Shown here in pieces: positions 2,728-6,069 of a DNA stretch of 64,000 bases; positions within the stretch are counted from its first letter, which is position 1, and each line of letters begins with the position of its first letter. The notes below the pieces were generated by a model. It searched no databases. It was not told where the DNA came from and saw only the letters and a list, made by a program, of their open reading frames with translations. The position numbers and the translations under genes were made by a program. This DNA comes from Pseudogemmobacter bohemicus (GTDB lineage: Bacteria > Pseudomonadota > Alphaproteobacteria > Rhodobacterales > Rhodobacteraceae): NCBI RefSeq assembly GCF_003290025.1, contig NZ_QNHG01000002.1, positions 1,310,976-1,374,975 on the forward strand, in the 5' to 3' direction.

Positions 2728-3939
2728 ATGCTGAAAGCCCCGATGCAGACTGAATTCGACAGGCTCCTGGCCCAGGCGGGCTGGTCCGTTCCTGATGCGG
2801 CGAAACGGCTTGGCTATTCCGAGGGTCATATCTACCGCTGGAAGCGCGGCGAGGAAGCCCCGCGTGAGGCGGTGCTGACCGTGCTGCGCGCCGAGGCAGG
2901 GCGGCATCCGGCATCCGAGGGCTCGTTCACCTTTATCGACCTTTTCGCCGGCATCGGGGGCTTGCGCCGCGCCATGGAAGCAGCGGGCGGGCGCTGCGTC
3001 TTTACCTCGGAATGGGATCAGTTCGCGCAGAAGACCTATCACGCCAATTACCCTGATAACCGCCCGATTGCCGGCGATATCCGCCAGGTGGCCGAGGCGG
3101 ATGTGCCCGGGCATGACGTGCTGGTCGCGGGCTTTCCCTGTCAGCCGTTTTCCATCGCCGGAGTGTCGAAGAAAAACGCGCTTGGCCGCTCGCATGGCTT
3201 TGCTGATGAAACCCAGGGTACGTTGTTTTTTGACGTGGCACGGCTGATAAAACACCATCGTCCGGTGGCGTTTCTGTTGGAAAATGTCAAGAACCTGCAA
3301 AGCCATGACAAGGGCAACACCTTTGCTGTGATCCATCGGGTGCTGACCCAAGACCTCGGCTACCAGCTGTTTACGAAGGTAATTGATGCCGGCCATTTCG
3401 TGCCGCAGCATCGCGAGCGGATCGTGATGGTGGGCTTTCGCGAGGCCAGCCCTTTCAGCTGGGATGATCTTGAGCTGCCCTCCTATGGCACCCGCCGGCT
3501 GGGCACTATCCTGCATCCCGAGAACGGCACCGAGCGGCCCGAGGGCCATTTCACCACCGGCCCCGATGCGGTTGTCAGCGAGAAATATACGCTGACCGAC
3601 AAGCTCTGGCGCTATCTCCAGGATTATGCGGCCAAGCACCGGGCAAAGGGCAATGGCTTTGGTTTCGGCCTGTTCGGCGAGGGGGATATCGCCCGCACCC
3701 TCTCGGCGCGCTATTACAAGGATGGCTCGGAAATCCTGATCCGCCAGCGTGAGGGCGAGAATCCGCGCCGGCTGACGCCCAGGGAATGCGCGCGGCTGAT
3801 GGGCTATGATGACAGCTTCCGCATCCCGGTTTCCGATACCCAGGCGTATCGGCAATTCGGCAATTCGGTTGCGGTGCCGGTTTTTGCCGAGGTGGCGCAG
3901 AAGATGCGGCCGCATATCCTGTCGCTGATCCATGGCTGA
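2728..3939 (+). CDS. dcm: DNA (cytosine-5) methyltransferase, Dcm type
   Basis: Transfers methyl from SAM to C5 of cytosine in DNA. The 403-residue product carries motif I FIDLFAGIGG (about 69), the catalytic GFPCQPFS (about 134), motif VI ENVKNL (about 184), motif VIII PQHRERIVMVGF and motif X RQFGNSV (about 374). The recognition-domain stretch (LWRYLQDYAAKH, GNGFGFG, TLSARYYKDG) closely resembles what I remember of E. coli Dcm, so CCWGG is the likely target. The first 60 residues look like a short helix-turn-helix (DAAKRLGYSEGHIYRWKRG), replacing the different E. coli N-terminal extension. It overlaps vsr by 8 bp, and no restriction enzyme gene is near. Confidence 0.95.
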   Translation: MLKAPMQTEFDRLLAQAGWSVPDAAKRLGYSEGHIYRWKRGEEAPREAVLTVLRAEAGRHPASEGSFTFIDLFAGIGGLRRAMEAAGGRCVFTSEWDQFAQKTYHANYPDNRPIAGDIRQVAEADVPGHDVLVAGFPCQPFSIAGVSKKNALGRSHGFADETQGTLFFDVARLIKHHRPVAFLLENVKNLQSHDKGNTFAVIHRVLTQDLGYQLFTKVIDAGHFVPQHRERIVMVGFREASPFSWDDLELPSYGTRRLGTILHPENGTERPEGHFTTGPDAVVSEKYTLTDKLWRYLQDYAAKHRAKGNGFGFGLFGEGDIARTLSARYYKDGSEILIRQREGENPRRLTPRECARLMGYDDSFRIPVSDTQAYRQFGNSVAVPVFAEVAQKMRPHILSLIHG

Positions 3940-4444
3940 CGTGCATCCGCCTGCCGCGAGGCGGCGTAATATGCAGGCGATCCGGGGGGCCGATACCGGA
4001 CCCGAGATGCTGCTGCGCCGTGGGCTGCATGGGCTGGGGTTTCGCTATCGGCTTCAGGCGCGCGATCTGCCCGGGCGGCCTGATCTGGTGCTGCCAAAGC
4101 ACCGGGTGGTTATCTTTGCCAATGGCTGTTTCTGGCACGGCCATGGCTGCGCTCTCTTCCGCTGGCCCGCCACGCGCGAGGCGTTCTGGCGCACCAAGAT
4201 TGGCGGCAATGTTGCCCGCGATGCCCGAAATCTTGCGGCGCTGGAGGCGCAGGGCTGGCGCATCGCCATCATCTGGGAATGCGCGCTGAAAGGGCGCGGT
4301 CGCCTGCCCGAGGGCGCGGCTGTGGCGCGGCTGGCCGCCTGGATCACCGAAGGCGGCCAGCGTATCGAGATCGCGGCTCAGGCGGCGACCATGTCTCCGG
4401 CCTTGACCGCATCGGCCAGCCCGTCCAGCAGCTCGACCGTCTGA
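3932..4444 (+). CDS. vsr: Very short patch repair endonuclease Vsr
   Basis: Nicks next to T in T:G mismatches produced by deamination of Dcm-methylated cytosine, starting short-patch repair. The start MADVH, NMQAI, LPGRPDLVL (catalytic Asp near residue 49), NGCFWHGHGC (His/Cys metal and catalytic region) and WECALKGR match the family in order. The start codon lies inside the dcm 3' end, implying translational coupling. The product is 170 residues against roughly 150 for relatives. The extra tail of about 21 residues is encoded antisense to the last codons of aroG, so the two convergent genes overlap by 67 bp. Confidence 0.95.
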   Translation: MADVHPPAARRRNMQAIRGADTGPEMLLRRGLHGLGFRYRLQARDLPGRPDLVLPKHRVVIFANGCFWHGHGCALFRWPATREAFWRTKIGGNVARDARNLAALEAQGWRIAIIWECALKGRGRLPEGAAVARLAAWITEGGQRIEIAAQAATMSPALTASASPSSSSTV

Positions 4445-5442
4445 TCCCAGGAGATGCAGCCGTCGGTGATCGACTGGCCATAGACAAGCGGCTGACCCGG
4501 AACGACTTTTTGCGCACCGGCGACCAGATTGCTCTCGACCATCAGCGCGCGGATGCGGCGCTCGCCTGCACGGATGCGGTCGGCGATATCCGCGACGACA
4601 CCGGGCTGGCGGGCCGGGTCCTTGCCGCTGTTCGCGTGGCTCGCGTCGATCATAATGCCCGGATCAATGCCGGCTTTTGCGGCCGCGAGCGCCACCGCAT
4701 CGACATCGGCCGCGCTGTAATTCGGCCCTTTCGAGCCGCCGCGCAGCACGACATGGCAATCCTGATTGCCGAGCGTCCGGGCAATCGCCGCCCGCCCGTC
4801 TGCGGTGATCGCCGGGAAACTGTGCTGCCCGCGCGCCGAGAGGATCGCATCCAGCGCCATCTGGACCGAGCCATCGGTGCCGTTCTTGAACCCCACCGGA
4901 CAGGACAGCCCCGAGGCCAGCTGGCGATGGATCTGGCTTTCCGTGGTGCGCGCGCCGATGGCGCCCCAGGCGATCAGATCGGCGAAATATTGCGGCATGA
5001 TCGGGTCAAGGAATTCGGTCGAAGCCGGCAGGCCCATGCGGTTGATGTCGAGGAGCAGCTTCCGCGCCAGCGGCAGCCCGTCTTCGATCCGGTCGGAGCC
5101 GTCGAGATGCGGGTCGTTGATCAGGCCCTTCCAGCCAACCGTGGTGCGCGGCTTTTCGAAATAGACCCGCATCACGATTTCCAGCTTGTCCTGGTGGCGT
5201 TTGCGCTCGGCCGCGAGGCGGCGGGCGTAATCCATCGCGGCCTCGGGGTCATGGATCGAACAGGGGCCGATCACCAGCAGCAGGCGCTCATCGCGCCCGG
5301 CCAGGATCTCGCGGATGGCGCTCCGGCTTTGCGCCACGGTCTCGGAGACGGCGGCATCACGGGGGATCGCGACCGCCAGCTCCAGCGGCGAGGGCAGGGG
5401 GCGCAACTCCTGGATACGCAGATTATTGGTCTCGGTCGGCAT
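4378..5442 (-). CDS. aroG: 3-deoxy-7-phosphoheptulonate (DAHP) synthase, class I
   Basis: Condenses phosphoenolpyruvate and erythrose 4-phosphate in the first step of the shikimate pathway. At 354 residues it has the length and motifs of the E. coli AroF/G/H family: VIGPCSIHD near 58, EKPRTTVGWKGLINDP near 96, VGFKNGTDGS, and MIDASHANSGKDP with metal-ligand residues. Which aromatic acid inhibits the enzyme cannot be read from sequence by eye. Expression is probably set by the leader at 5488-5626, which encodes a peptide with Trp, Phe and Tyr codons ahead of an intrinsic terminator. The 3' end overlaps convergent vsr. The isozyme label is approximate. Confidence 0.95.
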   Translation of the reverse strand: MPTETNNLRIQELRPLPSPLELAVAIPRDAAVSETVAQSRSAIREILAGRDERLLLVIGPCSIHDPEAAMDYARRLAAERKRHQDKLEIVMRVYFEKPRTTVGWKGLINDPHLDGSDRIEDGLPLARKLLLDINRMGLPASTEFLDPIMPQYFADLIAWGAIGARTTESQIHRQLASGLSCPVGFKNGTDGSVQMALDAILSARGQHSFPAITADGRAAIARTLGNQDCHVVLRGGSKGPNYSAADVDAVALAAAKAGIDPGIMIDASHANSGKDPARQPGVVADIADRIRAGERRIRALMVESNLVAGAQKVVPGQPLVYGQSITDGCISWDQTVELLDGLADAVKAGDMVAA

Positions 5443-5487
5443 TTCGGTCTTCCTGTTCTTTGTGCCCCAGGTTCTGACCGGCCCCCC

Positions 5488-5522
5488 CGAAAACGGAAAG
5501 CCGCCGGTCGGACCAGCGGCTT
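5488..5522 (-). terminator. Intrinsic terminator in the aroG leader (attenuator)
   Basis: On the minus strand AAGCCGCTGG and CCGGCGGCTT form a 10-bp stem (one G-U pair) around a TCCGA loop, followed by the T-rich TTTCCGTTTTC. It lies about 45 nt before the aroG start with no minus-strand gene upstream other than the leader peptide, so it should control read-through into aroG. Confidence 0.8.
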
Positions 5523-5588
5523 GAGGGTTCTTGGTGAGTATCGCCTGTCTCGCGTTACACAGCCGCCCGCATCCGCTGGCATGAGCGG
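5513..5588 (-). promoter_or_regulatory. Antiterminator and protector segments of the aroG attenuator
   Basis: Read on the minus strand, CCGCT (5584-5588), immediately after the aromatic codons, can pair with AGCGG (5573-5577). Alternatively CCAGCGG (5573-5579) can pair perfectly with CCGCTGG (5513-5519), the 5' arm of the terminator. The two pairings exclude each other. A ribosome stalled on the aromatic codons would cover the first segment and favour the antiterminator. The pairings are seen by eye; no folding energies were computed. Confidence 0.7.
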
Positions 5589-5626
5589 AAGTAATAAAAC
5601 CAGACGGGGGCGCAGGACATCGACAT
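5555..5626 (-). CDS. aroG leader peptide (23 residues, aromatic-rich)
   Basis: A 23-codon frame with ATG at 5626 (second ATG at 5620) and TAA at 5555-5557. Residues 9-13 are Trp-Phe-Tyr-Tyr-Phe, five consecutive aromatic codons (TGG TTT TAT TAC TTC). Such a run just ahead of a terminator is characteristic of leader peptides that sense charged tRNA supply; here all three aromatic tRNAs would be sensed, fitting the first enzyme of the common pathway. I see no strong ribosome site before either ATG, which is the main weakness. The peptide is not expected to act after synthesis. Confidence 0.75.
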   Translation of the reverse strand: MSMSCAPVWFYYFRSCQRMRAAV

Positions 5627-5772
5627 GCCGGAAAAGCTAAGCGTGAAAATCCGCTTTGTCACCCGGAAAATATCGCGGAATTTCAGGATCATGGGAAAAT
5701 ACTGGAGGCTCTTCCGCTGGTGTTCAGGCATATATTCAGAGTTTGTTAACCCTGTTCGCCGAAGGTTGGGCC

Positions 5773-6069
5773 ATGCGTATGCCCTTCATCCTTCCCCTCT
5801 TTCTTGCCGCCTGCGGCGCCCAGCCCGCGCCGCATATGTTCGGCGCCGAGCGGTTTGAGGCCAGCCGCGGTGGCCATGATTATGTGGTCTTTCTGAAAGG
5901 CGGCAGTGTCGAGGTGATCCGCCTCGGCTATGCGCGGCGCGGTGAACACCAGGAGATCCGTGCCACCATGATCGAACTGGTCCCGGAGCTTACCGGCTGC
6001 ACACTGCGCGAAAGCTCGTTACAGGGCGATTCGGGTGAGATGCGGGGGCTGGTCAGCTGCCCGCGTTAA
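5773..6069 (+). CDS. Small outer-envelope lipoprotein, unknown function
   Basis: 98 residues beginning with a very short lipoprotein signal, PFILPLFLAACGAQ, with the lipobox LAAC placing the modified cysteine at about residue 14. The rest (FEASRGGHDYVVFLKGGSVEVIRLGYARRGEHQEIRATM is seen in part) looks like a small mixed alpha/beta domain, and a second cysteine pair occurs near the C-terminus. The ATG at 5773 was chosen over upstream codons because it alone gives a signal peptide. Divergent from the aroG leader. I do not recognise a family. Confidence 0.75.
   Translation: MRMPFILPLFLAACGAQPAPHMFGAERFEASRGGHDYVVFLKGGSVEVIRLGYARRGEHQEIRATMIELVPELTGCTLRESSLQGDSGEMRGLVSCPR

Follow-up and report, generated by a model that had tools for sequence, protein, structure and literature searches.

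The window analysed here is a stretch of 64,000 nucleotides from Pseudogemmobacter bohemicus, and coordinates refer to it unless another locus is named. Its minus strand carries a gene, with a start at 5442, whose product is a class I DAHP synthase according to scores of 488.9 bits for TIGR00034 and 512.8 bits for NF009395, which bears out the earlier assignment of the gene behind the terminator; we refer to it as aroG. On the plus strand a dcm-type cytosine-5 DNA methyltransferase gene followed by a Vsr mismatch endonuclease gene (2728-4444) converges on aroG, and vsr has relatives in 10 loci, the window's own counted. Upstream of the leader a divergent small ORF (5656-6069, plus strand) has a lipoprotein-like start and no NCBIfam match; an ORF like it adjoins aroG in 8 loci, the window's own again counted. 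The leader and the gene consist of the following elements:

5657..5662, minus strand: predicted -35 box GTGACA (promoter match; 17-nt spacer to the -10 box)
5634..5639, minus strand: predicted -10 box TAGCTT (promoter match), 7 nt ahead of the leader ATG
5555..5626, minus strand: leader ORF, MSMSCAPVWFYYFRSCQRMRAAV and a stop, as read in the window; aromatic run kept in relatives
5588..5602, minus strand: control codons Trp-Phe-Tyr-Tyr-Phe; four positions aromatic in 12/12 distinct leaders of the window's clade
5573..5588, minus strand: segments 1 and 2, protector hairpin CCGCT/AGCGG (folding; pairs counted in the alignment)
5573..5579, minus strand: segment 2, CCAGCGG, 5' strand of the antiterminator (pair counts, coordinates)
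5512..5522, minus strand: segment 3, AAGCCGCTGGT, 5' arm of the terminator; CCGCTGG within it (5519..5513) partners segment 2
5498..5508, minus strand: segment 4, ACCGGCGGCTT, 3' arm of the terminator (stem scan; pairs counted)
5489..5497, minus strand: interrupted U-tract of the terminator, TCCGTTTTC (stem scan)
5476..5482, minus strand: segment 5, GCCGGTC, the complement of GACCGGC in segment 4 and the terminator loop
5445..5454, minus strand: Shine-Dalgarno AGGAAG with GACCG, a possible segment 6 of uncertain function, able to pair with CGGTC in segment 5
4378..5442, minus strand: regulated gene, for a class I DAHP synthase of the aroF/G/H type (TIGR00034, NF009395)

The leader ORF (5626..5555) has 23 codons and ends with a stop codon at 5557..5555, and its aromatic run reads TGG TTT TAT TAC TTC (5602..5588); this is the frame that the first-pass annotation had proposed. 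Codons for the end products of the pathway thus stand in a run within a short ORF, in the window as in the 52 distinct leaders. Directly behind the aromatic codons, at 5588..5573, lies the hairpin 1:2, CCGCT/AGCGG (-7.0 kcal/mol when folded alone), at the place where leader-peptide attenuators carry their protector hairpin. CCAGCGG at 5579..5573 can instead pair with CCGCTGG at 5519..5513, in the 5' arm of the terminator, over 7 bp with no mismatch; both the hairpin and this perfect alternative pairing had been pointed out before, and their coordinates agree with that description. As expected of an attenuator, the intrinsic terminator sits between the leader ORF and the gene, its stem (5522..5498) ending 55 nt ahead of the aroG start. 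It had been described as a 10-bp stem with a T-rich tail; a terminator is indeed present, but the stem is 11 pairs long, including one G.U, and the T tail is broken up (TTTCCGTTTTC) and weaker than in most relatives. The single-sequence statistics are modest: fold energies of single RNAs beat shuffles modestly (z -1.76 and -1.49), 9 of 200 shuffles were as good as the window fold (z -1.76), and 2 terminator-like sites were found in the window alone where 1.2 were expected. It is the conservation of the element in relatives, and not these statistics, that excludes a chance origin.

Relatives were collected in a scan that used the AroG protein as query, in which the best 80 of 103 were kept, so that the sample was biased to close ones, and genus, family and class searches added more. 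A locus was accepted when a strong terminator followed a short ORF that has four or more aromatic residues within a stretch of eight; L081, in which no start was found, was dropped before the counts, and L078 (by hand) and the Nocardiaceae (by terminator score) were dropped before the set was formed. By this measure an aromatic leader and a terminator precede aroG in 58 loci, 52 of them distinct by leader and terminator (50 from Alphaproteobacteria and two from Betaproteobacteria). The alphaproteobacterial rows sampled grouped as one clade (95/87) in the tree built from 109 DAHP synthases, and leader and terminator were present in 50 of its 53 rows; L015, one of the three exceptions, begins inside the terminator at a contig end. 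L023, which shares its contig with L110, likewise begins inside the terminator, and the covariance model described below finds a leader at the end of another contig of the same genome. In L107 the leader was placed further upstream and has one Phe and one Tyr codon only; this leader (1059-1191) is degenerate, yet promoter-like boxes and a terminator are kept. Separate acquisitions within the Rhodobacteraceae, which fall into two clades of the tree, were considered and set aside, as a joint grouping was not rejected (p-AU 0.236). Among the gammaproteobacterial rows mostly no aromatic leader was found. Upstream of aroG in L078 (a Pseudomonadales MAG) there is a short ORF ending in AYWFFYR and a terminator-like stem with a T tail, a candidate gammaproteobacterial aromatic leader. 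Twenty rows of Nocardiaceae have a YFWF-type aromatic leader before aroG, and a strong U-tract terminator was not found in the 14 Nocardiaceae loci scanned; in L043-L074 (Nocardia, Rhodococcus, Prescottella) the conserved YFWF leader has a tail of Pro-Ala-Pro-Gly-Gly or similar.

The peptide carries a coding signal at the run itself. All 12 distinct leaders of the window's clade share aromatic codons at four positions, with Trp and Tyr at 7 to 5 in one of these positions, and the conservation of aromatic codons across aroG upstream regions, which had been suggested as a check, was therefore found. Of the 40 leaders outside this clade 39 were compared (L116 being left out), and at each of five positions 33 to 37 of them have an aromatic codon, with both TTT/TTC and TAT/TAC in use. 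Changes at the aromatic positions are TTT to TTC, TAT to TAC, or exchanges among Trp, Tyr and Phe, so that the positions mostly remain aromatic. Trp, Phe and Tyr all occur in the run in 44 of the 52 distinct leaders, and Phe and Tyr only in the other 8. Many leaders outside the window's clade (alignment A1) also have a G-rich stretch, approximately GGNGGNNGGNGGGG, inside the ORF and directly 3' of segment 2.

Pairing was counted over the 52 rows of alignment A1, in which L009 and L011 are slightly misaligned. In the antiterminator 2:3, 86.0% of 364 cells were paired and 23 cells had changed on both sides; none of 500 shuffles was as high on either measure, and slid registers reached at most 55.3%. 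Hairpin 1:2 and the terminator together were paired in 84.0% of cells, with 56 two-sided cells, and again 0/500 shuffles were as high, all of these shuffle controls ignoring relatedness. The covarying stems that had been called for are thus found in both competing structures. The third 2:3 pair in the window's clade, for example, passes from A-U to G-U (L004, L088, L089) and to G-C (L091). The outer two 2:3 pairs are each unformed in 23 of the 52 rows; most of these rows belong to the Roseobacter-like clade, in which 5-6 bp are left. Hairpin 1:2 taken alone, weaker outside the window's clade, is paired in 74.8% of cells over the alignment. When the window RNA was cut at 5582, with the 5' part hidden, and at 5505, before segment 4, it folded as 2:3 (-28.8 kcal/mol); longer RNA folded as the terminator instead. 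Both the pair counts for 2:3 and this fold of the stalled state point to an antiterminator that excludes the terminator, as in known attenuators. Synonymous recoding behind the aromatic run placed 2:3 above expectation (p 0.05) in 7 of 52 loci (median z 1.35; window 0.094), and by itself is weak as a proof of 2:3 in individual loci, probably because Ala, Gly and Arg codons in GC-rich genomes easily yield such pairing.

When the best promoter match was taken for each leader, with 18 spacings permitted and no shuffled comparison, 43 of the 52 distinct leaders had two boxes 17 nt apart, the second lying 6 or 7 nt ahead of the ATG; a promoter at this spacing was not seen in Sphingobium, Phenylobacterium and the two betaproteobacterial loci. 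Such a position leaves no space for a Shine-Dalgarno sequence ahead of the leader ORF, and in the window, where TTCCGGC fills the interval from the -10 box to the ATG, no purine-rich sequence of this kind precedes the ATG. This arrangement suggests that the leader ORF is translated from a leaderless mRNA. Since the conserved promoter ends 7 nt ahead of the ATG, transcription likely starts at about 5626; the spacing in the 43 leaders fits a start at the leader ATG of the Sinorhizobium meliloti trpL type, here predicted from spacing.

We searched genomes with a covariance model, R1. It matched all 17 aroG-bearing Rhodobacteraceae, which are its own training sequences, with E values of 9.2e-10 or better, and the next match in 394 genomes had 2.6e-4. 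In the class Alphaproteobacteria the gene was found in 16 of 385 genomes, two of these being weak partial matches, and all 14 genomes that truly bear the gene were matched at 1.3e-7 or better (next match 4.2e-5), including the leaders of G589 and G678, which lie outside the training set. Held-out Paracoccus plasmids were matched in 5/5 cases examined, of 11 listed, with E from 7.6e-16 to 4.1e-10, and the element is present in Paracoccus denitrificans PD1222, a strain used as a laboratory model, where on NC_008688.1 the leader ATG lies at 285644, the match extends to 285770 and aroG begins at 285813. In L156 (P. pantotrophus pPAN2, 431-558) the loop lacks two bases relative to L152 and the frame of the peptide end is shifted, with aromatic run, hairpin and terminator kept. 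Other genes under the same element were sought among 28 weaker matches (12 from the family and 16 from the class scan) and rejected: eight places were taken and six of them aligned, and these match mainly a generic ACCGCC/GGCGGT terminator. The weaker match in the genome of the window itself, L130, has an E value of 0.0168. The scans scored eight candidates per genome under strict filters, so that weak copies could be missed; at this depth of search the element tracks the aroG gene.

The conserved codons, the covarying stems and the tracking of the gene support the four-segment attenuator that the first-pass annotation had placed ahead of aroG. We regard a ribosome-mediated transcription attenuator that senses charged tRNA-Phe, tRNA-Tyr and tRNA-Trp as the best reading, with a probability of roughly 0.9. 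The parts are in place, conserved and linked to the gene, and the competing pairs covary; from them we infer the start site, the stalling, the termination and the response to starvation as follows. RNA polymerase would start at, or about 1 base from, the leader ATG, with a ribosome trailing on the leaderless mini-mRNA. When charged tRNA-Phe, -Tyr or -Trp is scarce, the ribosome would stall on the aromatic run and hide segment 1; segment 2 would then be exposed and pair with segment 3, no terminator would form and aroG would be transcribed. When the aromatic tRNAs are charged, the ribosome would move on and segment 2 would be covered or re-paired with segment 1; with segment 2 unavailable, the 3:4 terminator should form and transcription stop ahead of aroG. 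In 46 of 52 leaders segment 2 starts 10-14 nt past the point where the last aromatic codon begins, roughly at the expected position of a stalled ribosome's front edge; a ribosome held at this codon would therefore be expected to hide segment 1 and leave segment 2 exposed. If it stalled at the early Trp codon instead, segment 1 would be left free, and the last Tyr and Phe codons are therefore expected to weigh most. Less in keeping with this reading, and unlike in E. coli trp, the stop codon of the leader is found 3' of segment 2, and a ribosome waiting at the stop would hardly cover segment 2.

Other explanations account for less of the evidence. The modest single-sequence statistics are what a simple constitutive terminator beside a fortuitous ORF, or a terminator that belongs to something else, would give, but the aromatic codons, the promoter spacing and the antiterminator covariation are conserved over 52 distinct leaders, by which this explanation is in essence refuted. 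Scarcely more credible is a leader that binds a protein or a ligand (a riboswitch or a repressor-bound RNA) and whose ORF has no part in the control. Conservation of segment 5 and the Shine-Dalgarno region beyond the four classical segments would suit it, whereas the control codons change in the way expected of coding sequence and no Rfam family reached the gathering threshold in the window; the Rfam 15 search returned two chance-like sub-threshold matches, found only when E values up to 10 were allowed.

It is also conceivable, and we think unlikely, that the leader is mainly trans-acting, with the terminated RNA of about 130 nt or the peptide regulating other genes besides or instead of attenuating aroG. 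The build, a leaderless ORF with an attenuator RNA, is like that of S. meliloti trpL/rnTrpL as described in the available parts of PMC7298713 and PMC10117765. Against a main function in trans, the peptide varies freely over its N-terminal half, its end is frameshifted in L156, and strong matches were found only in aroG-holding genomes, beside aroG or at a fitting contig end. Comparative sequence evidence indicates that the element ahead of aroG is a real and widely conserved attenuator of known kind.

A fifth segment follows the four classical ones. The terminator loop and 3' arm complement a stretch behind the U-tract in 31 of 52 loci at p 0.05 and in 14 at 0.01 (median z 2.12 against shuffles), a cruder test giving 18/52; a locus's own 4:5 pairs outdo those with other loci, with a mean rank of 0.294 against 0.5 expected and relatedness uncontrolled. 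This complementarity is absent from both betaproteobacterial loci, and in the held-out Paracoccus it reached p 0.04 to 0.12 (1/5 below 0.05). RNAalifold drew GGTC:GACC around the aroG Shine-Dalgarno in the window's clade, with 4/4 pairs in 10 of 12 rows. Segment 5 might act as a relay: once segments 2 and 3 are paired it would bind segment 4 and the terminator loop, and in the other state the Shine-Dalgarno region of aroG. In that case a single stalled ribosome would turn on transcription and unlock translation, and leaked read-through mRNA would be silent; dual control of transcription and translation within one leader is named, for vmlR, in the title of PMC9226507. We consider this relay doubtful. 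Masking segment 5 raised mean Shine-Dalgarno accessibility from 0.44 to 0.53, with 0.475 for shuffled segment 5 (51 loci, without L010). Pairs across the Shine-Dalgarno exceed those with the preceding stretch shuffled (mean rank 0.229; 51 loci, without L108). Tested against the start region, segment 5 reached p 0.05 in 5/48 loci, with L010, L096, L101 and L108 left out (median z 0.54; 1/5000 permutations as low, relatedness uncontrolled). Over the whole set, freed segment 4 dissolves the Shine-Dalgarno pairs barely better than shuffled segments do (mean rank 0.443 against 0.5 expected; 51 loci, without L108), and the relay fails there; only in the window's clade, a split chosen after the fact, is it suggested, with a mean rank of 0.17 (12 loci). 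It also failed in five held-out Paracoccus, with ranks of 0.39-0.75 for the relay and 0.20-0.74 for the hairpin.

The gene behind the attenuator acts in the synthesis of the very amino acids that would be sensed, as expected for a class I DAHP synthase. The same genome also carries a class II DAHP synthase (PF01474), an enzyme present in 12/12 genus genomes looked at and 18/20 relatives, and upstream of this class II gene no short ORF with an aromatic run was found (the best, a 57-codon ORF, has 3 of 8). The class I gene is patchy, occurring in 7/13 genus genomes and 17/394 family genomes. With a second DAHP synthase that lacks an aromatic leader, the attenuator would govern only an accessory, patchy enzyme. 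The suggestion that a single enzyme senses all three aromatic amino acids for the whole pathway consequently stands in its first part, as Trp, Phe and Tyr usually share one run, but not in its second, since the class II enzyme coexists and the attenuator alone does not make the pathway respond. In Escherichia coli the TyrR and TrpR repressors have the role that the attenuator would hold here. With it, many Alphaproteobacteria would have an accessory class I DAHP synthase equipped with a built-in sensor of aromatic tRNA charging.

The attenuators of trp, pheA and his in E. coli consist of a short ORF with codons for the end product, a hairpin 1:2, an antiterminator 2:3 and a terminator 3:4, all of which are shared by the aroG leader. 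It differs from them in its target, a DAHP synthase, and in that all three aromatic amino acids usually occur in one run; its ORF also appears to be leaderless, a fifth segment follows the U-tract and, compared with trp, the stop codon sits behind segment 2. Both the apparently leaderless ORF and segment 5 are relevant to the loading of ribosomes onto leaderless attenuator RNAs and to the fate of the mRNA after read-through. A literature search by titles and the beginnings of abstracts, a scope outside which the older surveys most likely to hold such a description lie, found no description of an aroG leader in Alphaproteobacteria, and aroG, aroF and DAHP were not found in the text available of PMC2965389 and PMC1262725; its novelty is thus provisional. 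In Corynebacterium glutamicum, as far as the available part of PMC4046766 describes it, aroF (cg1129), one of two DAHP synthase genes, is preceded by a leader with Phe-Tyr-Phe. An aromatic-codon leader peptide ahead of one of two DAHP synthases is common to both systems, although C. glutamicum belongs to another phylum and our comparison of terminators covers the 14 Nocardiaceae loci. The uORFC-13-1 motif before aroF of Acholeplasma has, in the accessible description in PMC8632094, an RBS, a uORF, a promoter, a terminator and at least one Phe codon; it resembles the aroG leader in having a uORF, a promoter and a terminator ahead of a DAHP synthase gene, and by that description is set apart from it by the RBS, which the aroG leader lacks, and by the mixed Trp/Phe/Tyr run of the latter. 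Within the Rhodobacterales, the same available text presents uORFC-8-2 before cysS, also a conserved uORF attenuator, which differs by its Cys codons and its tRNA synthetase gene. S. meliloti trpL combines, in the available parts of PMC7298713 and PMC10117765, a leaderless leader ORF with Trp codons before trpE, and the trans-acting rnTrpL RNA and peTrpL peptide were demonstrated there. The aroG leader is like it in being an alphaproteobacterial attenuator with a leader ORF predicted to be leaderless; it has a mixed aromatic run and aroG as its target in place of consecutive Trp codons and trpE.
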